Source of the DNA: Aquanectria penicillioides
Taxonomy: Eukaryota > Ascomycota > Sordariomycetes > Hypocreales > Nectriaceae
DNA length: 64,000 nucleotides
Direction: 5' to 3'
NCBI GenBank assembly: GCA_003415625.1
Contig: PYIU01000009.1
Coordinates: 1,178,001-1,242,000, forward strand
Part shown: positions 13,275 through 61,640 of the stretch, in pieces
How the letters are laid out: each line of letters starts with the position of its first letter
How positions within the stretch are numbered: position 1 is the stretch's first letter
The notes under the pieces: generated by a model
Database searches by the model: none
Told to the model about the DNA's origin: nothing
Seen by the model: only the letters and a program-made list of their open reading frames with translations
Made by a program: the position numbers and the translations under genes

Positions 13275-16200
13275 ATGGAGTCGCCGCCCAAGAGAATGAC
13301 GCGTGCGCGCGCCGCGGCCAAGGCCACTGAGGGCACCGTGAAAACCACCAAAATCGTCACAGCCGCTGCCCGTGCAAGGAGCACAGTAACAGCCAGCACA
13401 AAGAGCACCGCCGCCAAGAGAAAAACAAGAGCAGATGAGAACGAGGAAGATGAGCTAGAGCAGCGTGAAGTCCCAGTCACAAGAAGACCACGCGGCCGGC
13501 CAAAGAAGGTGGAGGAGCCTGCAGAAGCGGAGGCCCCTGCTAAGGCCACACGGGCCCGGGTTGTGAGAAAGACCACCACCACAGATGCCCCCACAGAGGA
13601 GCCAGCACCAGCCAAGGCAACTCGGGGGCGTCCCAGGAAAGCTGTCGCAGCAACACCGGCTGGGGCTACCTCAGAGCCGGCCAAGAAGCCCACAAGAGCA
13701 CGAGCTCCCACCACATCCAGAACAACCATCGCGGAAAGACCTACCGTGAAGAAGAGCGTCAAGTTCCAGGAACCTGACAAGGAGAACATTGAACCTGCCA
13801 TTGAGCCCCAGGAGACTGCGCGAACCGGGCTCCGCGGCCGGCCAGCCAAGCGTGGTGCGGCCGTCGGCGCGCGAACAACCAGAGCCGCGGTAAGAACCGC
13901 AACGACCGACAAAAAGCCCCTAAGCCCTAAGAAGATGACCCAGATGCCCCTTTCGAAAGACGATTCCGAAGATGAGCTCGCCGGCGACTCCACGCCGGTT
14001 AAGCCGATGATGAAGAGCCCCATCAAGCCGCCAACCGCAAAGAAAGAGCCCACAGCCACCGAGGAGGAGCCTATCGAGGCAACCGCCGAAGTCGATACTG
14101 TGTTGAATCCCCCAGACCTTGGCACTTCCGTGCTGGCGTCTCCAGCTAGGCGAATGCCCTCGTCCCCATTCAAAGACACAATGAAGTCTCCTGCACGGAG
14201 GATTGGCCCTGTGCCATTGCCAGGATCCACAATGAAGCCATCTGGAGGCATCACATCGCAGGGTGGTAACGTCACTTCTTTCAAGACTTCCCTGCTGCAG
14301 TCGGCTGCCAAGCGACCATCATCCCCCATCAAGGGCTTGAACTTTGGAAACCCTTCAACATCTCATCAATCTCAGTCGGCGATGAAGGCATCGCTGCTCC
14401 AGTCACCCGCTAAGAGATCTTTCCCTGGAATGATGCCTCTGACCGAGCCCCGCCAACGAGATTTGTCTACTCTGGGCGCCCCACCTACCATGAAGCCTCT
14501 TGTTTTGGCTTCTCCTACTCCCGCCAACTCTGCACGTTCATCTGATAAGCTCATGATGGAAGACCAGTTTGAGGAGAGTGAGGATGAAGTCGAGGATGAT
14601 CCATTCTCGGAGCCCATCGAGAGCCTTCAGTTCCCCGGTCGCTTGTCTGCCGTTCTTCCCCGCCATGCTGATCCAGTCCTGAAGAAGGATATGGGCATTG
14701 TTGACGAACCCAAGGTCCAGCAAGCGTCGCAGGAGGTGTCTGTTCCCGAGACCGAACAGGTCATCGAGGAAAGTCAAGAAGATGTCATCGAAGTCGGAGG
14801 CCAGGCTGTCGAGAAGCTTGCCGAGGAGACCAACGATGTAATGGCTATCGATGAGCTTGCTGCAGAGTTAGAGGATGATGTTGAAGAGTGCAAGTCAGCC
14901 GGTTCCAGCCCATCTCAGTCACCCGTTCAGGCTGAGAACCCCGTGTTCCAGCTCAGACAAAAGGACACTGACCCGTACCACAACATGGACTCCGATTCAG
15001 AGGACGAGATGGAGCCTCGCAGGCAGCTAGCTCCCACCACCCCAACACCTTTTGCCACCAAGACTCCCAAGACTCAGGGTACTCAAGCCAAGACTTCTCG
15101 AGCCTCCCTAGGAGGTTTCACTGCTCTGGCCGAGCGCTTTGGTTCTTGGTCAGCCGCCAGCCCCATCAAGATGGCCCCTCTTGCCTCAACTGGCGCAGGG
15201 GCCGCTCAGGATCTGTCTTCGGTGTCCTCAGTCCAAGCGTCTCCTCACTACTTTGACGATGAGATGTCGATCCGCCCCAACCCTGCCGCGGAGGCTCTCT
15301 CTGAGAAGCAAGGAGACGAAGTTGAGGAGCCTTCGTTCGACGACCTCATGGTCACCGAGGACGACGTTGCCTTGGCTCAAGAAGCAGACGAAATGTCCTT
15401 GATGGAGCCTGGGATGCTGGAGGGAGTTGCCAATTGCAATGCCTTTGACGACACCCTCTCCGATGCCAGCCAGGAGTATGGGGATGAGAACGAGCTGCCT
15501 GTTGACCCTGCCATTTCCAACTCGCACTCCCTCGCCCCTGTGACCCCCTACGCCCAGTCATGAAGACCTTCAACACGACTACCAAGGTCCCACTGAAGCC
15601 GGCGGACGATTCGACTCCTAGCCCTCTCAAGAAACGTAGCTTCACAGCCTCTCGCGTTGCACCTAGGCGGCCATCTGGACCCAGCAGGAATGCTACAGTC
15701 ATTTCATACTCTCCTATGAAGGAGAGGAAGAGCCTGCCCGTCACCACCGTGGAGCTTGCTTCCGCCCCGGCCACGCCTGGTCCTATTACCCCATCCAAGG
15801 CTGATCTCTGGTCCTCCATGGGCACCCCCGCCCGCACTCCGCGCCGGGACGTCGACCCTGCCCTGCTTCGTGGTGCCGTTGTGTTTGTGGATGTGCACAC
15901 TAGCGAGGGCGCTGATGCCAGCAGCATCTTTGTGGAGCTTCTGACTCAGATGGGTGCCAAATGCCTCAAGACATGGACCTGGAACCCCAGTGGTGCCGGT
16001 GAAGTCTCTTCCAGCAAGGTTGGAATTACGCATATCGTGTTCAAGGATGGTGGCAAGCGGACACTCGAAAAGGTTCGCCAAACCAATGGCGTCGTCCAAT
16101 GTGTCGGCGTCAGTTGGGTGCTTGAGTAAGTAATTCGGTTCATCTTCAATGGTACCCTAAACTAACTTGGAATAGTTGCGAACGTGAGAATGAATGGCTA

Positions 16201-16740
16201 GACGAAGCTCCTTACTACATCGACACCAAGATCGTTCCCCGCGGTGGTGCCCGCCGCCGCAAGAGCATGGAGCCCAAGGCCTTGGCGAACATGAACGGCA
16301 CTCTGGTCAGCAGCCCAGTCAAGGGCTCTCGAACCGTTTCCGGCACCCCCATCACCCCCAAGAACCGACGTGAGAGTTCCAACTGGGTGTACACTCCTTC
16401 GGAACGGGATGATGAGGACATCAATGATCCCGAATGGGACAACATGGTGCTCACTCCCGTCCCCAAGACTCCCGCTCCGGATGCCGTCGCTCGATATGCC
16501 GCCAACCTTGGCCCGGAGACGCCCTCTAGTGAGGATGAGGACTTCGACGACTCTCCTACAAAGGAGAACATGCTTACGCGAACCTGCCCGCCTAAGCAGA
16601 ACGCCTTCCGTGATATGGGCGCAGGTGTCTTGAGTCCTGAGAAGGATGAGCAGGTGCTCTTGAGACTCATGGCGGCGCGCCGCAAGAGTCTTCAGTTTGC
16701 CCCCAAGATTGGCAGCCCTTTGGCTCGCGCCTGGAAATAA
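13275..16740 (+). CDS. AT-hook protein with C-terminal microcephalin-like BRCT domain (frame break at 15544-15548)
   Basis: About 1138 residues if one frame break is bridged. The N-terminal 200 residues are very basic with three AT-hook cores (RPRGRPKK at 71-78, RGRPRK at 117-122, RGRPAKRG at 187-194), then a long acidic, Ser/Pro-rich, disordered middle. At about residues 862-965 comes a BRCT domain (LLRGAVVFVDVHTSEG, then MGAKCLKTWTW, ITHIVFKDG, CVGVSWVL), whose pattern is close to the first BRCT of microcephalin (MCPH1). The intron at 16126-16175 (GTAAGT, ACTAAC branch) separates the BRCT's final tryptophan helix from DCERENEWL. The first frame stops at 15561; the second frame covers this position and continues without a gap in sense. 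One extra C in the C5 run at 15544-15548 joins them (VTP then LRPVMKTFN). Expected role: chromatin-bound DNA-damage or chromosome-condensation factor, by inference only. Confidence 0.8.
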
Positions 16741-17412
16741 GCGACATTGAGCGTTGTGAATTATTGGGATACTTGTGCATGGATTAACATTTTAAGGGGT
16801 GTGTTTTTGTTTTATTTCAGACCCTGCCGGATGTGCAGGCAGCAAACACTCGTTTCGGGAATCGGATACATGAAACGAGGGCATACAGGACGGTTGGGTG
16901 CTTGGCGTTACACTGGAGAATGGTTAAATTTGGAATTTTGTAGGGATACCGAGATTGCGAAACTGGGAAGTTCGCTCATCCATAAGACTATTGTAATAGC
17001 CCCACGGGTGCTTCGAAGAATTGCAAGTCTGTCAATGGTGAATGCTGAATGTTGAAATGTATATTTTATTGGTTGATCTCGTCCATAACTCAATACTTGT
17101 GATGTTGAGTACGGAGGGATCTATGACTTATGACCGCTTTGCTGTGGTTGCTCCCAAGCCCAGTAGGTGTCTATAACCTGTCGCATATCTCATGTCTGAT
17201 GCATGTATAGGTGCATCTTGTCGAATGGTTTGTCAAGGGTGGAAATGGTCCCAGCCGATGTTGGATGCAGAGTATCGCTCCTCCCAGAGCGTTCCATGCT
17301 GCATCTTGGCCACCCAGAAGCCACTCTTAATCTTGTCTGTATTTATTTTTCCCTCCGTTTTTGTTCTCTCTGCCGTTGCCAATTTCCCCTTCTCGCGTGT
17401 CCCGTAGATCGT
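16741..17412. other. Convergent 3' spacer
   Basis: About 670 bases between convergent genes, containing both 3' untranslated regions. A TATTTTATTG stretch near 17060 could be part of a polyadenylation signal. Nothing else is evident. Confidence 0.5.
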
Positions 17413-17742
17413 CTAGGCGTTGATGAATGCGCGCATGGCCTTGACAGCGTCACCCTCGTGGCTCTTAAGCAGCTCGGTGGCCTTGGGCTTGGTCAGGTCA
17501 AGCTCATCGACGAGCAGGGCGACGTCGGCGGCATCGACCTTGACGTTCTTGGTGGACGAGGCGGCGGCCTTGGGGGCGCCGCCGCCGCCGCCGCCGAGGG
17601 CCTTCATGGCCTTGCTAACGGCATCGTGGTCGACGTTGTGGGAGCCGGCCGACTCGTCGGCGTCGAGGCTGGCGAGGGCGGAGGCGGCCTTGCGGTCCTC
17701 GGCGGACTTGGCGGTGGTCTGGTTCTCGTCTTCGGCGGCCAT
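17413..17742 (-). CDS. HYPK-like UBA-domain protein (NatA-associated)
   Basis: A single-exon protein of 109 residues. The N-terminus is acidic and Ala/Ser-rich, with EDRKAASALASL; a Gly/Ala linker (six glycines around 50-55) follows; and the last 45 residues (KNVKVDAADVALLVDELDL and onward to MRAFINA) form a three-helix UBA domain of the type shared by the nascent-polypeptide-associated complex alpha subunit and HYPK. There is no NAC domain, and the length fits HYPK of filamentous fungi. HYPK binds the Naa15 subunit of the ribosome-bound NatA N-terminal acetyltransferase and modulates its activity. Residues 1-40 would be expected to wrap around NatA. Confidence is high for the UBA domain and moderate for the orthology. 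The gene diverges from DAHP synthase. Confidence 0.75.
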   Translation of the reverse strand: MAAEDENQTTAKSAEDRKAASALASLDADESAGSHNVDHDAVSKAMKALGGGGGGAPKAAASSTKNVKVDAADVALLVDELDLTKPKATELLKSHEGDAVKAMRAFINA

Positions 17743-18733: not shown

Positions 18734-20145
18734 ATGGCTTCCTTGCCTTCTGAGCCGTGGGCCCCTAATTCCTGGCGCGCAAAGCCCATCAAGCAGTCCC
18801 CCACTTACGAAGAGCCCGAGAAGCTCGCTGCTGCTGTGGACGAGCTCACAAACCTCCCGCCTCTGGTCCACCCTAATGAGATCATCGCCCTCAAGGCCCA
18901 CCTCCGCGATGTTGCACTGGGAAATGCTTTCCTCCTCCAGGGCGGCGACTGTGCCGAGCTGTTTGACTACTGCCGGCAGGGTCCCATCGAGTCCAAGCTC
19001 AAGCTCCTCCTGCAGATGAGCGTCGTCCTCATTTGGGGCATGAACAAGCGGGTTGTTCGCATCGGACGCATGGCGGGACAGTACGCGAAGCCGCGGTCGA
19101 GTCCCACCGAGATTGTGGATGGCAAGGAGCTCCCCAGCTTCCGAGGAGACATCCTCAACGGGTTCCGGGTCGAGGACCGTGAAATCGACCCGAACCGGCT
19201 CGTCAAGGCTTACCACCACTCTGCGGCGACACTCAACTACATTCGCGCCTCCATCGCCTCTGGCATCGCCGACTTGCACCGGCCGTTGGACTGGGGCTCG
19301 GCCATGTGCGTGACCCGGCGCTCAAGGCCAAGTACTCGACCATCGCCTCGAGCATCCAGCAGACGCTGCGCTTCCTGCAGACCATCAACGCCCGCCCCGG
19401 CGAGCTGGAGTCGGTCGAGCTCTTCACCAGCCACGAGGGCCTCCTCCTCGAGTACGAGCAGGCCTTGACCCGGCTCCTCGAGAAGCCGGCCGCGGAGGGC
19501 CGCTACAGCCCCACCCCGACCGACGGCGGCCGCAAGGAGTACTACGACACCTCGGCGCACTTTGTTTGGATCGGCGACCGCACGCGGCAGCTGGACCACG
19601 CGCACGTCGAGTTCTTCCGCGGCATCGCCAACCCCATCGGCGTCAAGGTCGGCCCTACGACGCCCACGGCCGACCTGCTCGACCTGCTGCGCACCCTGAA
19701 CCCGGACCGCGAGCCCGGCAAGATCACCCTCATCACGCGGTACGGCGCCTCGCGCGTGCGGGACCTGCTGCCGCAGCACATCCGCGCCGTCGAGGACTCC
19801 GAGTACCGTCGCTGCGTCGTCTGGCAGTGCGACCCCATGCACGGCAACACCCTGTCCACCGAGACGGGCATCAAGACGCGCCGCTTCGGCGACATCTACC
19901 GCGAGCTGCAGGAGTCGCTGCGCATCCACAAGGAGGAGGGCAGCTACCTTGGCGGTGTGCACCTGGAGTTGACGGGCGATGCGGTGACCGAGTGTCTGGG
20001 CGGGAGTGAGGGGCTAGATGAGGATGACCTGTCAACCAACTACACTAGTTTCTGCGACCCGCGGTTGAACGAGAAGCAGGCCCTCGAACTTGCCTTTTTG
20101 ATTGCCGATCATTTCTCCCAGGAGCAGAGAAAGTTGACAGTATGA
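18734..20145 (+). CDS. Class II (plant-type) DAHP synthase (frame break at 19293-19296)
   Basis: 3-Deoxy-D-arabino-heptulosonate 7-phosphate synthase joins phosphoenolpyruvate and erythrose 4-phosphate as the first step of the shikimate pathway. The protein would have about 470 residues in one exon. Class II motifs are in order: QGGDCAELF (metal-ligand Cys73), VRIGRMAGQYAKPRSSPTE, WIGDRTRQLDHAHVEFFRG, NPIGVKVGP, WQCDPMHGNT, GGVHLELTGDAVTEC and CDPRLNEKQALELAF. This class is known from plants, many bacteria and filamentous fungi such as Neurospora, beside the yeast-like class I enzymes. The frame shifts between DWGS and HVRDPALK; one extra G in the G4 run at 19293-19296 gives DWGLGHVRDP, the family's usual sequence. 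Codon third positions are strongly GC-biased from 19300 to 20000. A Cpc1-type site lies upstream. Apart from the frame break the enzyme looks complete. Confidence 0.9.
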
Positions 20146-20573
20146 GGGTTCTAAGGGGGATTATTGTTACGAAATGAAGGGGAAAAGGACTATGCGAATC
20201 CTTTCCGATAGTTGTCAAAAATCTGTCAAAAAGTCGGCCGAGGGCAGGTGGACAATACGGATAAAACAGAACAAAGGAGCACACGAAAAATTAGGTTGAT
20301 AACAAGGGATCTTATCAAGGAGTGTCTTGCGAGCAAAAGAGAATATATATATACCACGTTGGTCGTTGAATCATCAATCCTTCTCCTAACGTCATTCGCT
20401 TGACGGCGCAAGTCGGATCACATCGCCTTGGCTGCTCAGCAGCTCCCCTCGCAAGGCGTACTTCTTTGTCCCAACAGTGGCTTCCGACCTGTCTGTTCCA
20501 TGTCCTCCAACTCTGTCAAATCACGCCTAGAAATAAATCACATTCGGCTCCATTTTCTCCCGAAACCGCACCA
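20146..20573. other. Convergent 3' spacer
   Basis: About 430 bases between convergent genes, holding both 3' untranslated regions; a TATATATA stretch lies near 20344. Nothing else is seen. Confidence 0.5.
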
Positions 20574-23236
<2,663 letters not shown>

Positions 23237-24769
23237 CTACATGTGTCGGTCGTCCACCACCAATGGCAACTGTTCGAACCCGAAATCCACATCAACTGCC
23301 GCCATCTTGATTGCCACCAAGCCCTCTGTAAACCTCTCTTCGTTGTCACACCGAATGACCTTTAAATTCGGGAACTCTACTCGACGGAGCTTCATTGTAT
23401 CCGCGAGGCCAATCAACCCTGTCTCCAGGCGTTCTGCCAAGTTTTGGGGGCCTTCCGCAATGTATAACGTTTCTATTGACCGAGGCAGCCGCCGGACTAG
23501 AACTTGGTCATCCTTTTCGTCTTTGTCGAGTTCGTCATTGTATAGAGAGTTTGTGCTCAGAAAAACAAATTTTAGTACGGTAAAGTTCTTTAGACTGGGA
23601 ATTAGAATTGCGCCTTCTGTCCGCCGTCGTCGGAAGCGAGAGTCGAGATGCAGGGTCTGAAGGGATTCCCCAAAGCGACTCAGTGATTCTATTGCTGCCG
23701 AAACCTTGAAATGCAATCCCCGCATGTCTCCAGCAAGCTCGTCGTCCAATCCCATGTGGTTCACAAGAATGCTGCGTTGGGTGAAGTCAGCCTTGAGCGC
23801 ATATTCGAGTGCAACGGTCTCAAGGTTCCCGGTGCAGGAGTCGAGAAGTAGACTAAAAGATTCATTGGTTAGTCTCTCTGCTGCGACGCGGAGATATTTT
23901 AGTCTTGGTAACGGAATTGCCGGATTGGGGATCCCAGCTGCCTCGACCCTCAAAGTTTCCAGGCCTCGTCCATGGACCAAAAGTGCCGGTTGCCAAGAAT
24001 CGATATTCAATGTGCGTAGGCAAGCTAGCTTATGAGAACCAAAAGCTTGCAAGGCTAGAGGGAAAGATGGATCATTGAATGAAATTTGGAAGGGGTTGAT
24101 CCTATGGATCCGTAGATATTCCAGCCTCGGGAGCAGTGCCACGAGCATGTGTATGAGCTCGCAACGAGTGAAGTTACTGATCATAAATCCACGTAACTTG
24201 ACTCCACATTCCGGCTCCAAGGTAACGCTGCTGTGAGGGTCCGGGCCTAGGAATGAACCGAGATATGTCTGAAGCAGCTTGCTGAGATGTGGGACCTGTG
24301 CCCTCTTTCTCCAGAGATCCCATAGATGGACGCCACGGGCCTTTGCTACTTCAATGAGTAGATCTCGACATTTTGGTTTCTCGGCTTCCACTGACAACTC
24401 TGTGAATATCGAGACTCCCTTGACGGCATGAGCGAGATCTGGACGTTGGGCCACGGTCCTCATGAAGGCGGGCCATCGATTGGTTAGGCTGTATTTGAAG
24501 GCAACCCGGGTGTCACCCCAGTCAAGGATGAACTCGTGATGCAAGACACACTGCGCCGCATCTCGGATGCGCCTCGAAACAAGGCATGCTGAGTATAGAT
24601 CCCGGCGAGTTGCAGGGTACCACGAAGGATTATCAGGCGTCTGGTGGGGTTGGTACCAATACAGGTCATGCGGACTATATGGCTGGCCGTATTTGCCCTG
24701 ACAGTGCATGCAAAAGTGGCCGAATATCTGGCACAAGAGTTCGTTTGAGAGATTTGAAAGGGTCGGCAT
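23237..24769 (-). CDS. F-box/LRR-like protein, copy 1
   Basis: A single-exon protein of 510 residues. The N-terminus (LSNLSNELLCQIFGHFC) is an F-box-like motif that would bind Skp1; it is followed by CLVSRRIRDAAQCVLHHEF, the continuation common in fungal F-box proteins. The rest has irregular leucine-rich segments (LPRLEYLRIHRINPF, LACLRTLNIDSW, LPRLKYLRVAAERL, LETVALEY) that form a loose repeat-type substrate platform. Expected role: substrate-recognition subunit of an SCF ubiquitin ligase; the target is unknown. The Cys/His residues in FCMHCQ also occur, as FCPHCC, in the neighbouring paralogue. The two genes lie in tandem in the same orientation. The frame is intact. Confidence 0.8.
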   Translation of the reverse strand: MPTLSNLSNELLCQIFGHFCMHCQGKYGQPYSPHDLYWYQPHQTPDNPSWYPATRRDLYSACLVSRRIRDAAQCVLHHEFILDWGDTRVAFKYSLTNRWPAFMRTVAQRPDLAHAVKGVSIFTELSVEAEKPKCRDLLIEVAKARGVHLWDLWRKRAQVPHLSKLLQTYLGSFLGPDPHSSVTLEPECGVKLRGFMISNFTRCELIHMLVALLPRLEYLRIHRINPFQISFNDPSFPLALQAFGSHKLACLRTLNIDSWQPALLVHGRGLETLRVEAAGIPNPAIPLPRLKYLRVAAERLTNESFSLLLDSCTGNLETVALEYALKADFTQRSILVNHMGLDDELAGDMRGLHFKVSAAIESLSRFGESLQTLHLDSRFRRRRTEGAILIPSLKNFTVLKFVFLSTNSLYNDELDKDEKDDQVLVRRLPRSIETLYIAEGPQNLAERLETGLIGLADTMKLRRVEFPNLKVIRCDNEERFTEGLVAIKMAAVDVDFGFEQLPLVVDDRHM

Positions 24770-25238
24770 TGCAGAAACTTGTGTGACTATGCGAGATTAC
24801 GAAGGAATCAGGTTGAGCAAAACCTCAACCAGGTGGTTGCAGGTGATGGCACACCTTAGTCAGCGTACGAAGCAGGCTACAAACAATTTTATTTAGAATG
24901 GCTTGCGGTCGGTCAAACGGACAAGGATATTGATAATTAGATGTTATGCTAGAGCCGGAATAGAGTTATGACGCCTTAAAAATGTTAAAGACCCTAGAGC
25001 GTTGTTCTCTGCAAGAATGATAAAAAAACGCGGACGAGACTTATGAATGGTTTCCATTGATTCTCTAATAATCGTAGATAGAATGAGAATATATTTATCA
25101 CTACGGATCTCGCTTTCAGGTTTATCATTTTGTGCTTCTTTTGAAGTAAAAGTCTTGTTTGCACACAGCTATTCTGATTCACTCCAAGATCTATCTACCT
25201 ATCTATTTATATTTATGGATACCCCCTGTGGAAGTGAC
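24770..25238. other. A+T-rich spacer between F-box paralogues
   Basis: About 470 bases of A+T-rich sequence between the two tandem F-box genes, probably the terminator of copy 2 and the promoter of copy 1. I found no decayed coding sequence in it. Confidence 0.5.
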
Positions 25239-26935
25239 TCAAAGGTCTTCATCTGACTCACTTGGGAGACCAAAAAAATCGGTGGCTGGGAGACCAAACA
25301 TCTGGTTGTCAAAGTCACCCATTGTCAAAGTCCACTCTGATACAGGAGAGAGCGGCCATCGCATCGCTCCTCTTAACGCAACATCGCTCGGGTTAAAGTC
25401 AATGCCAACACCCGCCAACAAATTGGTCGCCCTATCGTAAATTTCATGGTTGCAAAAACACCTGATGCTATTAAATTTTGGAAACTGTGCCGGATCTTGA
25501 TGCTTTAGCTCTGCCAAACCCCGCAGCGACTTCTCAAAGCGCGTGTGACAATGAGAAAAGCGTTGTTGATCCCCGAGGAGCAATGTCTCAATTGATCTGG
25601 GGAGCATGTTTGCAAGTGCGCTAGGGTCATTGCTTTCTGGAAGAGCTTCGTTGTATATTAAGCCCATGTCGAGCACCAAAGTCTTGAGGGCGACAAACTC
25701 TCGAAGACTTGGTACGGTCTCAACAGGATGACCAGCATCAAAGTTGTGGAAATATCTGCTGCGAAGATCGAGGTGGAGTAAAGTCATAGTGCTTTTATGG
25801 TCGTCGAGACAATCGACAAAATCCTCGACCCCAAAGTGCTGTGGCTGGCCAGCCAGATCTAGAACGGCCGTGGAAACGGAATCCACAGACTGATAGTGAT
25901 CTGAGGGCCAAATAACGCCCATCCCTGTAGAGGATAGACGATTGAGGGGCATATAACCGGGCCCAGCCTTGTACGTGAACGAACGCAGTTTGCCAGTGCA
26001 GGAATTCAGAAGCCTTTCAAGCTGCCCTCGATTCAGCCGAGAGTTTTCGACATTTACGTGCTTGAGATTTGGCAGTGGGGGATCTCTGTATATATCGAGA
26101 CTCCATGCAATTTGAGCGACTCGATGTTTGTTGCGATCTGAATTAGGGGAGGAATCCAGCCCTGCATCTCGAGCGCCTTGAGTGGCAGGCTCTGGACGCC
26201 AAGAGCCCTCCAAGCCGGTGGGTGCAATATCGACCAATGGCAACTCTGAATGTACAAGTATTCGAGCTTTGGCAACGACGGAAGCAATATGGATAGGAGC
26301 TCGCCATACAGCCATTCCTGCATTATATGCGACTTGATATGTTTTGGGGGCCGCTTTCGCGAGCGCCTGTCATTTAGGAATGATGCCAACAGTGTCTGAA
26401 ACTCTGGAGGCTGCTCCTTGCCGTCTTGCAATCGACGTCTCCATTCATCGCAAAAGTCCAGATTGCGCGCCAGTGCAGCTTCACGGGATACTTCTTGGAC
26501 AAACTTCATGTCTAGTTTGTCCCGGAGCAGGTTCCAGTGAATAAAGACAACCCTCACAGTGCGGGCGAGGTCACGGCGATCCATCACGGTCCGAACAAAA
26601 GGAATGAACCGCTGCGCCCAGCTAAAGTTTACACGAGCCGAGGCATCAGACCCAAGGTCGAACTGATGGTGGAGCACCTCCTGGGCTACGTCTCGCAGCC
26701 TGCGTGACGTGAGGCAGATGGATAAGAGCACATTGCGTCGCTCGGTGTACCACGACGGAGATTCCGGCTCTACGTCAGAGGAGCCTTCTGCCAGTTCGCG
26801 GCATGGGCTATAGTCTCCGCAACAGTGCGGGCAGAAGTAGCTGCAGATCTGTCGAAGGGTTTCGGTTGCCAAGTCGTTGATGGAACCCGTGCTCTTGTAG
26901 TTGGTCGCTCTGATCCGCGCGGAGCGACGCACCAT
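25239..26935 (-). CDS. F-box/LRR-like protein, copy 2 (frame break at 26077-26081)
   Basis: About 565 residues if one frame break is bridged. It starts with a basic stretch (MVRRSARIRATNY), then an F-box-like motif (INDLATETLRQICSYFCPHCC) and LTSRRLRDVAQEVLHHQFDL. It is similar along its length to copy 1: WYTERRNVLLSICLTSRR matches WYPATRRDLYSACLVSRR, LPKLEYLYIQSCHW matches LPRLEYLRIHRINPF, and LLNSCTGKL matches LLDSCTGNL. The frame changes in the middle of this alignment: NIESLKLHGVSIYTEIP is in one frame and PLPNLKHVNVENSRLNRGQL in another. Adding one base to the C5 run (G5 at 26077-26081 on the + strand) gives EIPPLPNLKHV, which aligns with IPLPRLKYLRV of copy 1. Role as for copy 1: probable SCF adaptor with unknown target. 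Confidence 0.75.
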
Positions 26936-27622
26936 GGTGGGTCAGGTGATGAGGGAGGAAAGGTGAATGACGAGAATGGGAGACGGACAGCCAGTCTCTG
27001 GTGATCAAATGATGATGGACGCCTTTGAATTTATATGCATGAATGGGGATGGGCAAAGGTGACTTTTTTGCCGACGTTGTTGGTCGCGCCAGATTACAGG
27101 CACTTGCTGCAGCTACAATGGCAGGCAGCCCTGTGCCGAAGCGACAACCGTGCCTCATTGGACTATGCGCAGCAGGCAGACCGCTCCAGCCAATGGCGAA
27201 AATGTGCAGTTTCGTAGCGAGACGAGCCAAGAAATACAAAAACCCATTGTAAAAACGGAGTAAAGAACACTAAGTTCAATGCCTGATTATTGAAGGCACT
27301 AATTTCTGCTATGCTTCATTGTGGCAGTTGTGGCCGTAAATATTCGTGGCGTCAGATGGCACACTATTTGCACACGCCTTCGGGTCAAGATGGGGTATTC
27401 TATTTTCTACCAAGTTTAATATTCAACAGTTTCCTCGTGAGTTCTAACAAAAATCTATTTAAAAAAAATTCCGGAAACGGTATCATCTCTGAATCAATCT
27501 CCTCCATTCTTCATATAGCACTCACGCATCCTCCCAAGTTGTCTAACAAGGTGAATAGGGCACGCCAGGTATCCGAATCTCCAAGATGCCGATGACAACA
27601 AAGCAGGAGGTGTTATCTTCGT
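26936..27622. other. Spacer upstream of F-box copy 2
   Basis: About 690 bases. The first 250 are the probable promoter of F-box copy 2. From 27240 the sequence becomes A+T-rich and leads into the decayed transporter copies. No gene is supported. Confidence 0.5.
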
Positions 27623-35148: not shown

Positions 35149-38100
35149 TTATTGCCTTCCTCGTCTCTCCGCCTCAAACAGCTCTCGCTTCATATCCATC
35201 AACATGTCCTCCACCTGGTATACATCGTCACGCGACAGGGCAGCTGCACGCAACTCTTTCAGGCCACCCCGTAAAATGTCCATAATTGCACCCGACTTGT
35301 TTTCCTCGCTTTCTTCATCTCCAGTGCGGGGTGCATCTCCCTTTTCCTGGGGCTCCTGGTCCTCCTCGGCCACAAGGTCCATAGGGTCACCTGATGCTGG
35401 TCCTACCTCGGGGTCTACTCCCTGCTGTGACTCTGGCTGACTCTGCGATGCCGCATTTGACTCGGTGACGAGTTGCGACATGAGTTCTTCATCCGTGTCT
35501 CCGCCATCACGTCCCTCGGGTCGATCAGATGGTGCCGTTGTCTTGGGTGGTTGCCTCGGTTGCCCCACCACTGAATCCTGGGTGTCTTGTTCTTGTTGCC
35601 TCTTGTTCTTATTTCCTGCAGTCCGCCTCGATGAACGCCGCGTAGTGGGGACGGGCGAGTTGGTTTCCTCCACAGGGGTGGATGCAGGCTGGCTCTCTTC
35701 GCCCTGTTCCTGCTCTGCCAGGCCACCGGATTTTCTCCTCTTGCTACGTCGCTCAGGAACCATTGACGGTCGCTTCCTTTTCTTGCTCTGGCTTCGGCTT
35801 TGGTTTTGGCTTTGTGACGATTCCAACTTAGGCTGTGTGGGCGTGGATGGAGTCACAGATGAATCCACATGTTCCTTCTCTTTGTCCTCCTTCTCCGGCG
35901 ACCCTGACTCACTTGTGTGAACTGTAATGCTTTTCTCAGGAGAAGCGAAACTAATCTTGGGAATGGGTAGATTGATGCTCTTCGATTCGAGCTCAGCAGC
36001 AAGTTGCATCATCCCGCTCTCATCCACCTCGCTCAACTCGAATGACTCGTGCATCTGGCTATCAGTCTGCTCAGGGGCCTTGGTAGGTGTTTCTTCACGT
36101 GCGGGCTCTTCTGGGCTGCTTCTGGCGTCCACAAATTCGTCGTCTGCAGATCTAGGTGTGTCTTGAATCTGGTTGTCGGGAGGCGAGTTTTGGCGAGTGG
36201 GTGTAGATGGAGGCTTGGGACCAGATTTGTCAGGTTCCTCCTCTGGCTCCTTAGAGACTGTGATTTTGACTTCTTCAGCCGCAGTCGAGGGCTCCTCAAC
36301 AACGCTCGATGGAATAATTTCCATATCCAGTGGCGAGTTGGACTTGGCCCTCTTACGGCGGATTCGTCGCGTAGCTCGGCCAGCAGAGGTAACCCGAGGA
36401 AATTTGTGGTCAGTCTTGGATTGTTGACTGACAGGTGGCGTGCCTGGAGGCGAAGAGAACTCCCAGCTTTCCAACGAGCTCTTCGCCCTTGACCTAGTTT
36501 GGATTTCAGAGAGCAGAGGGTTAGGTCTCGGCTCCGGTGGCGACGAGGGAGGATCGGCCAGGTCCTCCATTTGCAGAGCTTGTCCTCGTCGTGGAGTCGG
36601 GGTAGAGCTGATAAATTCCTCATAGGAAGCGGGCCGTTCGGGGGTCGATTCTTGAACTCGGGTCCTGCTTGTCTCAGCTGATTCTTTGGCCTTTTCCTCC
36701 AAGGCAGTCCGAGAACGAGTTCTCGGGCTAGACCTAATACCCGCATAGATTCCAGCGTTCTCTCGTTGCCGTTGTCGGACTTCCCTTTGCCTCTCCGTAA
36801 GGTGTTGCGATTCCTCAACTACTGGTGAAGATGATGCGATGGGGGCAAATTGAATCTGTGAATTATCATGTCGTAAGCGGGGTGTGCTCGTCCGCCGTGT
36901 CGATTTGGCTTGTGCCGTATCAGGTGTTGCATCTTTGCGACGCTTCCTAGTCATTGGTCCTTTAATTGCCATCTTGGACGCGGATGGGGCCTGAGGGGTC
37001 GTTTGCTCGATTTCATTTCGTGATGATTTGGTGGACGAAAGGGCAATGAAGCTGAGCTCGTCTTGAGATTCGATGAATGATTGAGCCTGAGCACCAAACT
37101 CGCCGCTTGATTCTTCAATCCCAGGAAATGAGACATCGACCTTCGGGCGGAGTGCCGTGATGATTGCCTTGAGGCTGTCAGAACAGTCCAAGGTCTCCTC
37201 ATCCTTGTAGATTTCATTCCAGGTTTCGGCCATCCTATTTACGATGTAACGGTGTTTGCTTTTGAATCCCGCCGAAACGAGTGGCTCAATCAGACTAAGA
37301 TCTTTGTTTTCGAGGCGCCCGAGAGATACCAATTGTCGACCAACAGCATCCCAAAGAGATCTCAACTAAGAATAAGTTAGCATTGGAAAAACGCATCATG
37401 AGCTTTTAATACATACAGCAACAGGAAGGGGTGATTCATCGCCCAGTTTTACTTGGGCCATTTCATCTAGAATCCACGGGTTGAGACCATCTTGCAATTT
37501 GGTAAGGGTTTTGACTCCTGTCTCTGAGAAGGACGCTGTCATAAAATTATTGACAGCCTCAAAGTAAGAGGCAACTGCTGCATCGTCTCCTAATTTTGCT
37601 AGATTATTGTAGGCAAACTTCATGCTCTGCTCCTGGAGCTTGTAGAGGTTGTCGAAAGGATCAAAAGTTGATGCTCGTGATGTGGCTGGAGGTGCTCCCC
37701 AAAGACGACGTCGGGCAGCCTCCACTGCTTGGCGGTCTCGAGGTAGCTTCGCAACCGTGAATAGCAACGTCGTCACGCTAAGTGCCAGTTGGGTTGGGCT
37801 TTCGGGATTGTTGAAAAAGTTTTCCAACACAATCTTAGAGACAGGCTCGACGAGGCCAAGGGCACGTCCGGCGTCACCACACTCCTGAACAATATGGTCC
37901 GAAAGGAGATTGAAAAGTGAGAGCCAGTATTGTGAAGGCAGATTTGGGTGTGACAAGAGGCCACGTTCCAAAAGTGAGACGACCTCGCGGTACTCGGGAC
38001 CTAGGAGCCGTTCACTGCTTGGGGGGATCTGGCTAGACATGGTTTGTTCTAGAGTTTCACGCATGTTGCTCGCGGCCAAAACCCAGGGGCCATATGGTGA

Positions 38101-40448
38101 GAGAGTATCTCGCGGTAGCAATAGCAGCATTTCGCGAATAAGCTCAGTTCGAATCTTGCTGCTCTTTTCGGTAAAGAAAGGTTCAAACATAGACTGGAAG
38201 AAGTCGCAAAGGGTTTCGTCATCGGCTGCACCCGGGGGTATAGAGCAAAGAATAGAAAAGAGGTGATAGACCGGGGCTTGGACAATTCCCCTTGACTTGT
38301 CCACTCGATCAGGCCGGTGGGATGGAGTTGCAGCTGGCTCAAAGGTGTTGGTCAAGGACATCGCCAATCTCTTCTCAGTAAATGGGAGGAGTCCGAGGCT
38401 TTTGACCAAGATGTGCACATAATTATTAATGCTCGGCAAGAATTTGGGGTTCAATGGCTCATCCCCTTCGGAAGATCCTTTAGACCACATCTTGTAAAGA
38501 AGACCAAAAGCGCAAGCAAAGAACTTGGCGGTATCATCAGACACCTTGATATCCTTGGCTGAGGCAGCCGCAATGGATTCAGCCAAGGCTTGCCACAACC
38601 TGTATGCCAGGCTCTCCTTGTTGGCTAGATCTGTAAACTTCTTCTCAAGAATGGGCCCTACCAGCTGGAAGACCTTCTCGCAATTTCGTCGAGTCCATTT
38701 AGCATCGATGGAAGGGAGGACCTCTGGGGTAACTAGGGCTCCATCCCGGATGCGATCTTCTCGCCAACTTCGAGGTGTTGACACATCTAGCAGTCCTGTT
38801 AGGATACGAGAGGCCTGGGTCATGGAGTCGCTGTGGACGTCGGGCTTTCCATCAAGGTTGATAAGCTGCACCATGACGGGTTGGAGTGCAAGGTCCCAAG
38901 CTGCATCGGTCGAGGCACTGTCGGGACTAGGTCGAAAGGCATAATAATACAGGTTGCAAATACCGCCAAACACGGTCCTCCGCAGCTTCATTCCCTCCTC
39001 GGCTTGTTTAGCGTTGACTTTTCGTCGGAGTTGGCTCATTAGAGGCTGGACTAACAGACCCAGCGCTTTGGGTGGCACTTTGCTATCGATCAGGGAAAGG
39101 TACACATATCGGTTCCACGCAGAATTAGCTTCCTGCTTAGTCTGTGAATCAGCTGTGTTGAAGGCAGATTGGGCAAGCTTCAACCAAGAGTTGAAGTATT
39201 GCCATCTGTCAAGCGGGCAGCGGAGGAAAATGGTAACTGTGCTCCAGATCTGCGGTACCGCAGAAGGACATTGCTTATCCTTGATCATATCTTCCAATTT
39301 TCGAATATAGAACTCGATGTAAGTCTGGTCGCCATCCAGAGTTTGGAAGATCTCGGTGGCTTTGCGCATCACCTGTTTTTCGTTTCGAAGAGAGAACCCG
39401 GCATCGGTACCCAGGCTGATTGCCTGAGCACGAATGTCTCTGATTGTGCTCAGCATGTCTGTGAACATGTCCATCATCCAATCCGTGTGTATAGCCATGT
39501 GTGGTCGTGATTGCTTGATGAGCCGCTTGTAGATCTGAATGCGACCCATGACAATGCTCTTGCCGGTCAATCGGTCCTCCATCTTGTGCATGGAGGTCAC
39601 CAGTCGCCCAACTCTATCCAACGTCATGACCTTGGGAGAGAACGACTGAAAGGCGACTACCTGCATCAAGTGGCGGACGAGGTCCTTGGGAACATTCGGG
39701 TCGTCGAAGCAGCGGATGCAATGATCGATGATGAAAACTCCGAAGTCGGAAGTAAGCGTCGAAGCGATGGCTTGGAAATGGAGAAAGGTGGTGAGGAGGT
39801 TCAAAGAGTGGTTGATGAGAGAAGTATCGGGCGACCCATTCTCAGTCTTAGATTTGACATCGCGCTGGATAAACTGCATGAAGAGGCTCATCTTGTCCTG
39901 CAATGCGACCCGGTCAGGCAAGTTGTTTGAAGCCTTCAAAGCTCGAGCAAGCATCATGTAGGAATCGAGGCGCGAGTCCCGGTCAGCGCCGGCAAGCTGC
40001 TTAATTGTCGATTCCAGCATCTCGGCGATGTTGGCTTGGTCGGACAAGCCATCGAGACCGCCATGCAGGGACGAAGCAAGGGGGTTCGGAGAAGAGGAGG
40101 GCTTGAGAATGCCCTTGATGGGCTTCGAGGCCGACCGAGTCACCGATAGGGGGATGACCTATACGGCTTGGTCCCGTCTCGATACTCTGGCGGGTCTTTA
40201 TATTCAGTATGAGCGGACCACTCGACCTTTTTCCTCATTCGTTTCGAGGTCGAGTTGGTTGCCCCGTTGGACAGGGGAGAGTTCGGGTTGGGGGGCGTTG
40301 AAAGCTGCAATCGGGGATCGAAGGGACTGCGAGCGAGGACAGATTTGAGAGACACTTGGGCGTCCAGGTTTGTTTCTCGAGGGGGGGTCGGGGGTCGAGT
40401 TGGCAGTGACTCGAGGACAGTGTTGGAGGCCGGGGCTGAAGATGCCAT
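35149..40448 (-). CDS. rif1: Rif1-like telomere/replication-timing protein (frame break at 40149-40153)
   Basis: About 1749 residues if one frame break is bridged: exon 40448-37417, a 51-nt intron (37366-37416, GTATGT...CTAAC...TTAG), then exon 37365-35149. Rif1 recruits protein phosphatase 1 to chromatin to limit replication origin firing and acts at telomeres and breaks. The N-terminus has TRPPTPPRE, an RVxF-type PP1 motif (KKVEW, residues 73-77) and a SILK-type motif (GILK, 113-116). Residues about 130-950 are helical HEAT-like repeats typical of Rif1 (TFLHFQAIASTL, LVRHLMQVVAFQSFSPK). The C-terminal 600 residues are disordered, Ser/Thr/Pro- and Lys-rich with many SQ/TQ. The frame changes between PYRSSP and TRSASKPIKGILK. 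One extra C in the C5 run (G5 on the + strand at 40149-40153) joins them as SSPLSVTRSAS. The orthology rests on length, domain order and the paired PP1 motifs. Confidence 0.82.
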
Positions 40449-45065: not shown

Positions 45066-45605
45066 TTACAAAACATTTTGAACTAGAGTAACAATTCCTA
45101 CGCCAGCACCTGCAAGAGGAAGCAGGCTCCGGCCCAAGTTCAGAGCAGCCCACTTACCAATCAATAACTTAACCTCATCAAGACCAGCAGAGCTTGCGCC
45201 GTTAGCCACGGCGTGTAGTAGCGCATTAGTTCCCGACATGAAGGCCACGGTGTAGGGGACAATGCTAAAGCCTAGGACTGCGGCAGCAACAAAGCCCTTC
45301 CAGTTGCCACCCGCGCTGTTTTGTGTCGTAGGCGGCAAAGAGGAAAGCTGCTGCTGTGGTGGCGGCAATCTTGGGCATGAGAGCGACGCCGCGGGCAAAG
45401 AATTCAGCCCAGATTGTAGCAGGAGATGACGGGGCGATTAGCGCAGCGGGAACTCCAACTATCGAGATGCTGGCAATTGCACCTGTGATATTGGGTCAGA
45501 ATGTGACTCGAGATTGAGGATTCCAACGGAATTCATACCTGAAGACCAAGCGGAGCCAACAACACCAGTGGCAATGGCCACTAGAGTCGGGAGCGTGTAT
45601 TGCAT
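45066..45605 (-). CDS. DUF1772-like small membrane protein (frame break near 45319-45322)
   Basis: Two exons on the minus strand (45605-45539 and 45482-45066; intron GTATGA...ACAG) give about 160 residues if one base is removed. The sequence reads MQYTLPTLVAIATGVVG, SISIVGVPA, FARGVALMPKIAATTAAAFLF, then GGNWKGFVAAAVLGFSIVPYTVAFMSGTNA in pieces, and ends LLIGKWAALNLGRSLLPLAGAGVGIVTL. Four hydrophobic spans and the pattern PYT..FM..TN plus W..LN..RSL..L fit the DUF1772 family, which includes fungal anthrone-oxygenase-like proteins. Family membership does not prove oxygenase activity, and there is no polyketide cluster here. The first part and the last part are in different frames; one A fewer in the A4 run (T4 on + at 45319-45322) gives TNSAGGNWKGF. 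This is the only break needing a deletion, so it is less certain than the others. The gene converges on the chromodomain gene. Confidence 0.65.
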
Positions 45606-47235: not shown

Positions 47236-49413
47236 ATGAGCGTGCCGGCCAAGGTCCTCAGCTGCTCCAGCTGTCGCCACCGCAAAATCAAATGCGACAA
47301 GGTCCAGCCAATCTGCACCCAATGCTCGCGCTTCGGCTTCGAGTGCGTCTATCCCTCCAGAAAACCAACCCGCCGCGCCCCGCGGCCGCGCCAGACCGAG
47401 CTGCTGGACCGAATCAGCCGGCTGGAGAGCATCGTGGGCCAGGCTGACCCCGCGAAGCTGGAGCAACTAGAAAATGAGCTGAGGGGAACCCAGACAGCAG
47501 ACGGCAGCTCCGAGTTGCTGTCCGATAATGGGACGCAAAGTCCCGATACCCATAGTTCTCCTTCGAAACCCGTGGATAGATATCTCAGCGGAGAGTTTTG
47601 GGGCCATTTGTGTGCCGAAGTTGAGGGTATCAGGCAGGCTCTTGACCAGCCATCCGAGGATGACGATGATGACGAAGGGACCAGCCCCGAGTCCACCGAG
47701 GGTGCTAGTTCCTCCAAACTCAGTGGCCCGTCGGGGCTCCTCCTCGGAAACTCGGATTACCAGGAGAAAGAGCCTTTGGTTCACCCTCCACCAGACATGA
47801 TGGTCCGCCTCTGGGGGCTCTACGTCCGCAATGTTGATCCCCTTATGAAGATCATCCATCGGCCAACCATTGCGAACTTGATCCAAAACTACGCCGACTC
47901 CCACGGGGCTCGACCGTTCGATCCTGCGACCAATGCCGTAATCTTTGCCATCTATTTTTGTGCCATCACCAGTCTACGTCCAGAGCTCTGTGAGCGGGAC
48001 TTGGGCGAGACTCGCGATGTTCTCTTCAGGAGATATCGCAATAACATTGAGCGAGCTCTCGCCGAGGCGGACTATCTCGAAAGCAATGAGCTGGAGGCAC
48101 TGCAGGCTCTGGCTCTTTACACGGTATGTCGTTCTGATATTCATTCAATATTCATTCCATGACCTAACTGGCAATATCAAGTCGATGATTCGATGTTACT
48201 CACACAACCGTTCATCATGGGCTCTGACTGCCCTGCTGGTCCGCCTCGCCCAAGGTCAAAAGCTTCACCGCGATGGCGATGGCAAACGATTCACTCCCTT
48301 CGTGGCCGAAATGCGTCGTCGCCTATGGAACTTCATCATCGTTCTCGACGTCCGCGGCTCCGAAGACCGTGGCTCTGAATCCATTCTATCCCGGGCAGGT
48401 TTCGATACTATCATGCCAACCGCCATCGACGACGATGACTTTGGCCCAGACAGCAAAGGTCCACTCGTACCGAAGGAGTCGGGCCCGGCGGACAATGTTC
48501 TTCTCATGTGCACAGCTACATGCTCTAGAATATTTGGTCACATGGCACATCCGGGGTCCCATTCGTACGGTGACGCCCAAGCATTCACCTACAATGAAGA
48601 CGAACTCATTACACACATCCGACAGCTGGAAGCCCACTTCATCCACACAGTCGTCCCCTCACATCTCCCCTCCTGCTACGCTTCGGACATTGCCCGCATC
48701 GTCATCCTCAAAATGTGGCTCAATGTCCAGTATCCCTTCACCGGGTGCGTAGCCCCCTTGCGCCCTCGCGTCTCTCGCGAAACAATGCTCCGCACAGCAC
48801 TGTCCATCATGGAGCTGCGCGACCGCATGACGACGAAGCCAGAATGGGTAAACCGGTTTGAGTGGTGGACCAACACGTACGTGCAATGGCACCCCTTGGC
48901 GGTGGCCCTGGCAGAATTGTGCATTCAGACCGAGGGCGAGCTGGTGGAACGGGCCTGGCAGGTGGTGGAGCGAAATTTCCCTGGTTCAAGAGACAACATT
49001 GCAGATTCTTCCCAGGGTCCGCTGTGGCGACCCATCAAGAAGCTGCTCAAAAAGGCAAAGGCCGCAAGGGCAGAGGCATTGATGAAGAAGTTGACCATCA
49101 ACCAGCCCACGATATCAGCAACGCCTCCCCAGTGGGGCCTCCAGCGGCGACGACGCCAATGGGTATCGATCCCCAGCCGAATCCCGTCCAGACACCGGCA
49201 TTCCAAGACTCGATGGGATTCTTGCCGGAAACATACGATTCAGCTACCATGGACCCGTCAATCTTATTCAACTACCCGCCAGAACTGCTTATGATGGACA
49301 TGGGGCCCGAGATGGGACAGGAGGGCCCAATGGAATGGTCACTGTGGAACGAGTTTGTGAACGACACAAGGCAGGATGATTCTCCTGGGAGCGGTACGGC
49401 AGATTCGACTTAG
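47236..49413 (+). CDS. Zn2Cys6 fungal transcription factor (frame break at 49127-49137)
   Basis: About 706 residues from two exons (47236-48123 and 48182-49413; 58-nt intron with CTAAC branch) if one base is added. A binuclear zinc cluster lies at the N-terminus: Cys10, 13, 20, 27, 30 and 37 (CX2CX6CX6CX2CX6C) in CSSCRHRKIKCDKVQPICTQC, followed by a basic linker (RKPTRRAPRPR) and a short coiled coil (ELLDRISRLESIVGQ). The middle, from VRLWGLYVRNVDPLMKIIHRP onward, is the fungal-specific factor domain (Fungal_trans), with EMRRRLWNFIIVLDVRGSEDRG as its most conserved helix. The frame changes between ISATPPQ and PAATTPMGIDPQPN. Either the C4 run (49127-49130) or the G4 run (49134-49137) needs one extra base. 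The C-terminal end is acidic and hydrophobic, like an activation domain. Target genes are unknown. Confidence 0.85.
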
Positions 49414-57607: not shown

Positions 57608-58525
57608 CAGAATGGGCGCAACGTGGAAATCCCTTCTGCAGATGCGAACATGCCGCGCACGAGCGGCATGAACATCGGAGGCCCTCGAACTCCATGCGAG
57701 TGACGCCAACGGCGGCAGCGGGCCCGAGCCTTGGTTCCTCCATGGCAAAGGTCTCGTGGCCGCGATGCGGAATCGGCTCAGCGCCATTGGGGAATGGCAG
57801 CGACAGACATCGAACGCACCCCGCGAGGAGGGAGACTGCGGCAAATATTCGCGTGCGGACGTGGGTGTCGACGTGGGCGTGAGGCCGGCTCGGTTATGAC
57901 ATGTTCGCTCGCGACTGGACTCGGCCCTCCTGCGGGTGATGGGATGCGTGGTGAGGACGACACGATGGTGTTGCCAGAGCGGCGGCGCATGACAGATAGC
58001 CAGGGCTGTGACGGGGCAGGATGCACAACTTAACCAATCCTCGTCACCTTCTAAATGGCCCTAAACTACAGCGCAAGGCCACCTAAAAATGGTGTGGTGG
58101 ACTGATGCGAATTCTCGGTTTCAGTGCATCACCAAAGCTGCCCGCCAGCAACAGGCACATCCACTGTAAGCTGGCGGCAGGCATGTGAGTAGGTACGTAG
58201 TCAGCCTGGTCTCCGCACCGCAAATCTTCAGCAGAAACCCGCCTAGCGGACCCAACGTTTTAGCAACCCGCAACCTTCTAAATATGGAGTAGCTGCTGCC
58301 TTGTCACAGTACCCTTGCGCGAACAAAACAACAAACATACCTAAACAACATCAGGGCCCCGAGCTTACCGGTCCATTCCAGCCCTTTTCATTTCCTTTTT
58401 CTCTCCCCTCAAGTTCCCCCGCCCCCGCCCCTCGGTCAAATATCGACGCCTACCCCTCCGACGCAAACCGTTGAACGGACCCCGCCAAATATCACCGCCC
58501 TCTCTCGTCCTTGCATTTATTTGCC
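57608..58525. other. Divergent promoter region, hydrolase / Sds22
   Basis: About 920 bases between divergent starts; a pyrimidine-rich stretch lies at 58370-58440, before Sds22. Nothing else is supported. Confidence 0.5.
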
Positions 58526-59781
58526 ATGCCTGGTTCCCTCGACAAGGAGAGCGATGGCCACGCCCACATCGACATCCCGGAGGACCTTCCCTCTCCACGA
58601 CCCGAGGGCGAAGCCAGTCCGGTTATGCGGAACAGCAAAGGCTGGGATGGCAAGCTACGAGTCCCTAAGTCGGCGCTCGTGTCGAACCCCGAAGCCTTGT
58701 CCGACCCGGAATACTCTGACGATGAAAATGTCTTGAACGGCGACGAAATTGCGGCCGACGAAGGTAATAGGGCGACCCGGCGATTCATGAACCAAGCTGA
58801 TCCTTCATCGCAACAGACCTTTTGGAGGACGAGGACCCCGAAACAGACGAGATCATGCTGTCTCACTCCCGCATCGGCTCAATATCTGCCTTGAAGCTCG
58901 AGCGCTTCAAGAGCGTGGCACGTCTCTGCCTGCGACAAAACAGCATCCAGGGAATCGAGGGCCTATCTAGCCTCGCCGCTACCTTGCAAGACCTCGATCT
59001 TTACGACAACCTGATCTCGCATGTCCGCGGCCTCGACGAGCTGACAAATCTAACGAGCCTCGACCTGAGCTTCAACAAAATCAAGCACATTAAACATATC
59101 AACCACCTAACCCAGCTGAAGGACTTATTTCTAGTCGCGAACAAGATTGGCAAAATCGAAGGCTTGGAAGGGCTCGACAAGCTGACGTCGTTGGAGCTGG
59201 GTTCAAACCGCATCCGCGAAATCCGAAACCTCGAAACTCTCGCAAGCCTAGAGGAGCTTTGGGTGGCAAAGAACAAAATTACCGAGATTAGCGGCCTCGG
59301 CGGCCTACCGAACCTACGCCTCCTCAGCATTCAGTCTAACCGCATTTCTGATCTATCTCCCTTGAAGGAAGTGCCACAGCTGGAGGAGCTATACATTTCT
59401 CATAATGCTCTGGAATCGCTGCAGGGCATCGAGCACAACACCAAGCTTCGTGTTCTCGACATCTCTAATAACAAGGTCTCAAGCTTGCAGGGACTCGGTC
59501 CGCTTACAGAAATCGAGGAACTATGGGCCAGCTACAACTTGATCGGCGATTTCAACGACGTCGAGAAGGAGCTCAAAGACAAGGGCCAGCTCACCACAGT
59601 TTACTTCGAAGGCAACCCGCTGCAGCTCCGTGGGCCTGCTCTATATCGGAACAAGGTGCGGTTGACGCTGCCTCAGTTGAAGCAGATTGATGCCAGTAAG
59701 TATCCCGGCAAACACGGCCGATCATGGCAAGGAAGGATATACTCTGACATTTGTCTCTCTTTAGCTTTCGTGCGAGTATAA
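58526..59781 (+). CDS. sds22: Sds22, leucine-rich repeat regulator of protein phosphatase 1
   Basis: Three exons (58526-58763, 58817-59695, 59765-59781) give 377 residues. The acidic N-terminus (SDPEYSDDENVLNGDE) precedes about eleven SDS22-type 22-residue leucine-rich repeats, such as LQDLDLYDNLISHVRGLDEL, LTSLDLSFNKIKHIKHINHL and LTSLELGSNRIREIRNLETL, and an LRR cap (LTTVYFEGNPLQ, then LPQLKQIDATFV). Sds22 binds the catalytic subunit of protein phosphatase 1 with inhibitor-3 and helps its assembly and mitotic function. The last exon codes for only five residues and a stop; it completes DATFVRV. Introns are GT-AG (53 and 69 nt). The frame is intact. Confidence 0.93.
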
Positions 59782-60186
59782 CAGGTTGCCGAGATTAAAT
59801 TTCTAGTGGACTACGGCGCAGACGGTACGGTACGGCGTTGGATGGCATTGTTTACACATAGCAAGAGAGCATGGTTCAGAGAGAACAAAAAACCATCAGG
59901 CCGCCAAAGACAAATGTCCAACATGGTTTCAGAACCGAGCAGAGGATTTATCAAGCGGCAATATACGCAAGAGTCTTTGATCACCACATTTCACCAATGT
60001 TGTAAGGGGACCAGAGCTCGTGGGTTTGTGTGGGGGGAATGGGTTATCTGTTTGTATTCTAAGGTGGACTCCCCATTACGTCCTTGGGGCTAGAAGATAC
60101 AGCCATCATCAACATAACAAACGCCTAAGATGATCCCAAATCATGTCATTTCCGTCACTTTTCATCGTCAAGTTTGAATCATTGCT
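59782..60186. other. Convergent 3' spacer
   Basis: About 400 bases between Sds22 and the aldo-keto reductase, with both 3' untranslated regions. Nothing else is seen. Confidence 0.5.
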
Positions 60187-61640
60187 CTAAGCGAAGATCC
60201 AGAGGTTCTCGGTGTCGAAGTACTGCGTCGAGGACAAATTGTCAGTACGTGTCTTGAGGTAGCTGAGGTTTGAAAAGGGGGTTAGGCAAACTCACGTTGG
60301 TGGGCTGGTTGAACTTGAGGTGGAGGTTCATCTTGGAGATGCGCACCATATCCTCCTCGGGGATGTCCCAGCCAGTGCAGTCGAGGTTCTGGGTCATGAG
60401 ATCGACGTTGTAGGTCTTGGGGATGACAGCCAGGCCCTGCTGGGTGGCCCATCGGAGGAGGACCTGGGCGGGGGTCTTGCCGAGCTTCTCGGCGAGGCCG
60501 GTAAAGACATCGTGCTTCATAAGGGGAGAGGCCGACTTGGCGCGGTCCATGTCAAGCTCGATGAAGCCGGCAGGGCCGAAGGAGGAGTAGGCAGTCAGAG
60601 TGATGCCCTCAGCCTTGGCGAGGCGGACGAGCTCGGGTTGCTGGTGGTAGGGGTGAAGCTCGACCTGGAGGGTGGCAGGGCGGATCTTGGCATACTTGAG
60701 GAGGTCGTAGATGGTCTGGGACTGGAAGTTGGAGATGCCGATGGAGCGAGCGAGGCCCTTCTCGACGAGCTTCTCCATGGCCCCCCAGGTCTCCTGGTTG
60801 GTGGCCTTGCTCCAGCGGATCTCCGACTTGCCATCGTAGTGCCAGCCGGGGGGTAGCGGACCTCGGGGTCGACGTACTCGAGGGCGACGGGGAAGTGGAT
60901 GAGGAAGAGGTCGAAGTAGTCGATCTGCCAGTCGGCGAGCTGGCGGCGGGTGATGGGCTCGACGTTCTCTTCGTCGTGGTAGGTCTGCCAGAGCTTGGAG
61001 ACGATGAAGAGGTCCTCGCGCTTCACGATGCCCTCCTTGATGGCACGGGCGACACCCTCGCCGCATCCCTTCTCATTGCCGTAGTCTAGATGGAGGGGAA
61101 AAACACCAAGTTAGAACCAATTCTCTCAAGAGGTTGATTTGTGCGCATTGTGGATGTGATTCGCCAATTCTTCCGCTCCCCCTCCCCCTCCGCTGCCCTG
61201 AAGCTGCTGCTTCCAGCGGGAGGGCGGGCAAAGTGCAGATGCCCAAGATGCCCAGAGACAATGGCAGCTGGAAGCTGCTGCATGACGCGGGTGGAGGGGT
61301 CAATGTTACAGGGGTTCGTGGGTATTCTCTCGGGGTAATTGGGTAAAAAACAGATGAGGGGCTGTCAACGAGCAGGGGGGTGTGGACCGGCGGGATGACG
61401 GAGCAGCAGCAGCTCTCTTTTTTTGGATGGGCGCTTTGGCGGGCCGTCTCGCGCGTCTGGTCTTCTTATCATGACGAAGGGGAAATGGCACTTACCGCAA
61501 GCGCCGTCGAGCAGACGGTAGCCGGCCTTGATGGCATTGTAAACAGTGTCGGCAGTGTTGTCGTCGACCTTCCAGAGACCGAAGCCCACCTGGGGCATCT
61601 CGAAGCCGCTGTTGAGCTTGATGTTGGGGACGGAAGTCAT
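60187..61640 (-). CDS. Xylose-reductase-type aldo-keto reductase (frame break at 60848-60853)
   Basis: Three exons on the minus strand (61640-61496, 61085-60296, 60222-60187) give about 323 residues if one base is added. It belongs to the D-xylose reductase group of the aldo-keto reductases, which reduce xylose to xylitol with NADPH in the cytosol. The catalytic tetrad is in place: Asp45, Tyr50 (in GACDYGNE), Lys79 (IVSKLW) and His112 (LIHFP). [14 protein letters not shown] is the coenzyme-binding segment. The frame breaks after VDPEVRYPP: the next frame gives [12 protein letters not shown], as in the family. One more C in the C6 run (G6 on + at 60848-60853) restores it. The first intron, 410 nt, is unusually long for this window. 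The last exon codes for 11 residues ending NLWIFA. The upstream leader extends into 61700. Confidence 0.9.

Follow-up and report, generated by a model that had tools for sequence, protein, structure and literature searches.

Seven genes in the window analysed here, i.e., the whole stretch of 64,000 nucleotides (G000:C13:1178001-1242000), are each broken by a change of reading frame at a short mononucleotide run, and we consider it very likely that these breaks are homopolymer errors left behind in the consensus of a long-read assembly. The original prediction had placed the breaks at seven particular runs, and this was confirmed throughout: every run lies at the coordinates given below, the frame switches there, and similarity to homologous proteins continues on both sides. 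Short C/G homopolymers would have been called one base short in the consensus and one A run would have been called at the wrong length, and such miscounted runs would throw genes that are otherwise intact out of frame. The assembly (53.76 Mb in 13 contigs) has telomere repeats at 10 of its 13 contig starts, as in long-read assemblies, and a long-read platform was presumably used without complete short-read polishing.

Three of the breaks lie in genes on the + strand. The BRCT-domain gene (13275-16737) breaks at a C5 run at 15544-15548, and all 12 homologs tried cross the break gap-free, with frame 3 matching up to 15548-15584 and frame 2 from 15506-15545; a second frame switch in this gene, at 16126-16177, is an intron-sized gap. 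In the class-II DAHP synthase gene (PF01474; 18683-20142), PF01474 positions 1-186 and 183-438 are found in two frames with their junction at 19297-19309, beside the G4 run at 19293-19296 where the break was placed. The Zn2Cys6 transcription factor gene (47245-49410) breaks at 49127-49137, at either a C4 or a G4 run. All 13 homologs tried switch frame here, the two pieces overlapping in seven cases and lying no more than about 20 bases apart in the other six, a figure obtained by hand arithmetic with unaligned residues counted in. Another frame switch in the same gene, at 48123-48182, is again an intron-sized gap.

The remaining four genes lie on the - strand. Rif1 (PF12231; 35152-40505) is broken near its N terminus at a coding-strand C5 run at 40149-40153; for five of the six homologs tried, the change of frame falls within 40113-40194 (the P0003 alignment stops at 40149 and picks up again at 40152), while the sixth, P0044, begins downstream of the break. 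Elsewhere in Rif1, at 37366-37398, a stop lies between two long frames of the same phase and is perhaps an intron. The second of two neighbouring F-box/LRR-like genes (copy 2; 25242-26941) breaks at a coding-strand C5 run at 26077-26081: residues 6-289 of a paralog from the same genome (L006) stop at 26078 and residues 289-523 begin at 26081 in the other frame, and both a further paralog (L008) and copy 1 switch frame at the same place. The two neighbours (23240-24796 and 25242-26941) are about 29-33% identical, and more relatives were seen on contigs C1, C2, C3, C8, and C9. The aldo-keto (xylose-reductase-like) gene (60245-61110) breaks at a coding-strand C6 run at 60848-60853, where, in a comparison with solved xylose reductases, residues 50-131 and then 128-314 of a chain of PDB 1sm9 meet at 60844-60856. 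Finally, the DUF1772/anthrone-oxygenase gene (PF08592; 45069-45495 without its upstream exon) breaks at a coding-strand A4 run at 45319-45322. PF08592 positions 1-37, a match (E 0.0027) that misses the family cut-off, are followed by positions 29-105 with a junction at 45304-45323, and a paralog on C2, which matches PF08592 positions 1-104 in one frame, aligns to the downstream window piece alone. Of the seven breaks, this one is the weakest supported.

By a hand count, the broken genes are seven of the 19 recognisable in the window. No break was seen in the other 12, most of which were tested over their Pfam-covered part only; they include Ric8, arginase, an LRR_4 repeat protein, and F-box copy 1. 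In our own reading, gaps the size of introns interrupt the genes for an aldose epimerase and a sugar transporter. A 488-aa frame at 3097-4560 (- strand) matches the histone H1-like HC2 family barely above the cut-off.

The fault is not local, as conserved genes on contigs C9 and C7 carry it too. On C9, the gene for the zeta subunit of the T-complex chaperonin has an intron followed by two breaks beside two CCCC runs (G000:C9:2265045-2265093). The piece before the first break matches residues 133-170 of the zeta subunit in PDB 9unw (E 5.5e-4) and the piece after the second matches residues 187-461, with 46 bases between the matched pieces where 16 codons need 48. On C7, two pieces of the isoleucyl-tRNA synthetase gene (residues 24-461 and then 458-645 of PDB 8c9e) meet at a G5 run (G000:C7:5012824-5012837).

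Among the eight homology-bounded breaks (the seven of the window plus the C7 gene, with intervals widened by 6 bases), seven fall at a C/G run of at least 4, compared with 9-18% expected by chance from random coding positions (P about 4e-6); the eighth is at the A4 run of the DUF1772 gene. The 23.25 kb of coding stretches used contain 118 C/G runs of length four, 31 of length five, and six of length six, of which two of the 118 at length four and four of the 37 at lengths five to six (three at five, one at six) are broken. The broken fraction thus climbs with run length, although the numbers are small (one-sided Fisher p 0.029). All nine C/G-run breaks, six in the window and three elsewhere, have the same frame step (two-sided sign test 0.004), with the limits that the two in the zeta gene are not independent, that the short stretch separating them was judged by eye, and that their net step could instead be a single opposite step. 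In the original prediction, six C/G runs need one base added and one A run needs one base removed; the step at the DUF1772 A4 run is opposite to that at the C/G-run breaks. The window keeps long runs of up to G10 and T18, so there is no wholesale shortening.

Per the original prediction, homopolymers contracted in the consensus would account for the breaks, and this is supported by the kind of run involved, the common direction of the step at the nine C/G-run breaks, the increase in the broken fraction with run length, the single-copy state of the two genes tested for it, and the two conserved genes affected on other contigs. The closest named proteins to the BRCT and Zn2Cys6 genes come from Cylindrodendrum, Dactylonectria, Neonectria, Thelonectria, and Mariannaea, which we take to be members of the Nectriaceae, and in relatives Rif1, the BRCT gene, and the Zn2Cys6 gene each encode one continuous single-frame protein. 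From these single-frame homologs, and from the positions and signs of the breaks, their dependence on run length, and their occurrence on C9 and C7, all of which were observed directly, we infer that the runs at these sites differ in length in the true DNA. Among the findings that speak against homopolymer contraction are the opposite sign at the DUF1772 A run, the higher density of breaks in the window than in the genes sampled elsewhere, and the long runs that the window keeps.

To place the window in the context of the assembly, we looked for frame changes between neighbouring matches to Pfam families. All listed matches of PF00118 (17), PF00012 (20), PF00133 (19), and PF00083 (15) were covered, together with 49 of 141 for PF00069 and 20 of 102 for PF00067, these being matches with a neighbour and chosen by eye; the underlying genome search scored 92 of 227 candidates for PF00067, nine of 720 for PF00083, and 123 of 264 for PF00069, so that these families were sampled in part. 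Out of 73 pairs, five were flagged. Those in the T-complex zeta and Ile-tRNA synthetase genes are breaks, the pair at C10:2383256 was rejected as an intron, and the pairs at C11:31950 and C10:712563 were assigned to neither class and stand outside the break count. No break was found among the listed pairs of PF00069 (kinases; 26), PF00067 (P450s; 10), and PF00083 (6).

The original prediction further held that many such errors would occur assembly-wide and proposed a survey of the remaining assembly, which was run on sampled genes. The broken C9 and C7 genes favour the claim, but the density elsewhere is lower, so the claim stands in part only: there are three breaks in 48.2 kb of aligned sequence elsewhere versus seven in the 23.25 kb of coding sequence in the window (one-sided p 0.017), in a post hoc test in which the window had been picked for its breaks and the comparison consisted of the listed matches of four families, with PF00083 partly scored. 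Given this difference, sequence quality may be locally worse in the window, or the break rate may be uneven.

A de novo coding-frame model was rejected as a lone survey tool, being too weak: it marks four of the seven known breaks, with one of these marks displaced by about 220 bases, along with many introns. Across nine 10-kb samples, seven interior and two flanking (L027-L033, L037, and L038), the model gave seven candidates, and no homology-confirmed break was found. L037 2922, L028 3832, L033 1395, and L038 4387 were read by eye as introns; L033 6613 has no C/G run adjoining, and the others are L037 1316 and 1479.

Several alternatives to consensus error were weighed. The best placed, to which we nevertheless give very little credence, is that the strain has undergone real and recent single-base indels, whether by decay of this region or as a mutator strain, and the greater density of breaks in the window than in matches sampled elsewhere would fit it. 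Against it, the genes affected include those for a T-complex chaperonin subunit and Ile-tRNA synthetase, the loss of either of which a haploid fungus should not survive; the frames are open and conserved apart from the break; and the runs are only 4-6 long, while replication slippage favours longer ones. In the search for signs of pseudogenes, which would be expected to carry several lesions and to have lost constraint, one break was seen per window gene with the frames otherwise open and conserved, and two breaks in the C9 chaperonin gene. Nor was an intact second copy that could make a broken gene dispensable found for either gene tested: Rif1 has one PF12231 match in the genome and the class-II DAHP synthase is the sole copy found by the PF01474 search, which also led us to reject a hybrid or duplicated genome as the source of intact copies of these two genes. 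Fungi usually depend on class-I DAHP synthases. The original prediction had described all seven window genes as essential or housekeeping, which is not the case, as the F-box, Zn2Cys6, aldo-keto reductase, and DUF1772 genes are not housekeeping genes.

We consider it less probable still that programmed -1 ribosomal frameshifting or transcript slippage operates at the C/G runs. The nine breaks of shared sign would suit such a system, and the aldo-keto reductase site does have an in-frame XXXYYYZ heptamer; yet this slippery heptamer is absent in-frame at the other eight of the nine sites, and relatives encode the Rif1, BRCT, and Zn2Cys6 proteins in one frame, so that frameshifting would need many origins in one lineage. 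Slightly more doubtful again is the related idea that this lineage truly carries short C/G runs and makes full-length proteins via routine -1 slippage in unrelated genes on several chromosomes. Least probable of all is that ordinary short introns cause the switches. Introns do account for many of the frame changes seen elsewhere in the genome, and most of those inferred measure about 48-90 bases; at each of the seven sites, however, the pieces matched by homologs adjoin or overlap, or are separated by no more than about 20 bases, which leaves no room for an intron, and we rejected this cause.

Consensus error at homopolymers has precedents, as well as cautions, in other assemblies. In the available portion of a study of Drechmeria coniospora, long-read polishing of nanopore-only assemblies still left errors, chiefly at runs, in about one fifth of single-exon genes, and short reads removed them (PMC7500977). 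The likeness to the present case, as far as that portion goes, is in a chromosome-scale assembly in which reading frames are disrupted where G/C or A/T runs of at least 4 occur (PMC7500977). The same portion reports that over-long runs were commoner than short ones after polishing, whereas the C/G runs of the present assembly are short, and that PacBio-only fungal assemblies were not hindered by homopolymer error; we take both statements as cautions on our reading (PMC7500977). The paper on Homopolish, per the part available, describes systematic homopolymer indels in nanopore data through which reading frames are shifted and spurious pseudogenes arise, the class of error to which we assign the present breaks, but it differs in presenting a tool that corrects bacterial, viral, fungal, and metagenomic data sets, and the C/G run-type bias found here was not seen in that part (PMC8011154).

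As biology, the breaks are ordinary. Gene sets predicted from this assembly are expected to contain false introns, split genes, and false losses, with Rif1, a chaperonin subunit, and Ile-tRNA synthetase among the apparent losses, and claims of gene loss or pseudogenes made from this assembly therefore need read support. Drechmeria coniospora, like the present fungus, is an ascomycete of the order Hypocreales.

We would also like to note some features of the assembly as a whole. Most contig starts are telomeric and have a very high AT content, with GC at 18-29% in nine of 13, as expected after repeat-induced point mutation. Contig C9 begins with 5,000 N, contig C4 is N over its entire first 10 kb, and contigs C9 (4,470,000) and C12 (3,845,000) have round sizes. 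A 22-mer, CCCCCCTTTTAGGTTAGGGGGG, whose C6 and G6 ends belonged to the search pattern, occurs twice on C2 and also on C6, C8, C9, C11, and C12, while C3 has a copy that differs by one letter; the 22-mer looks like a piece of a repeat family.
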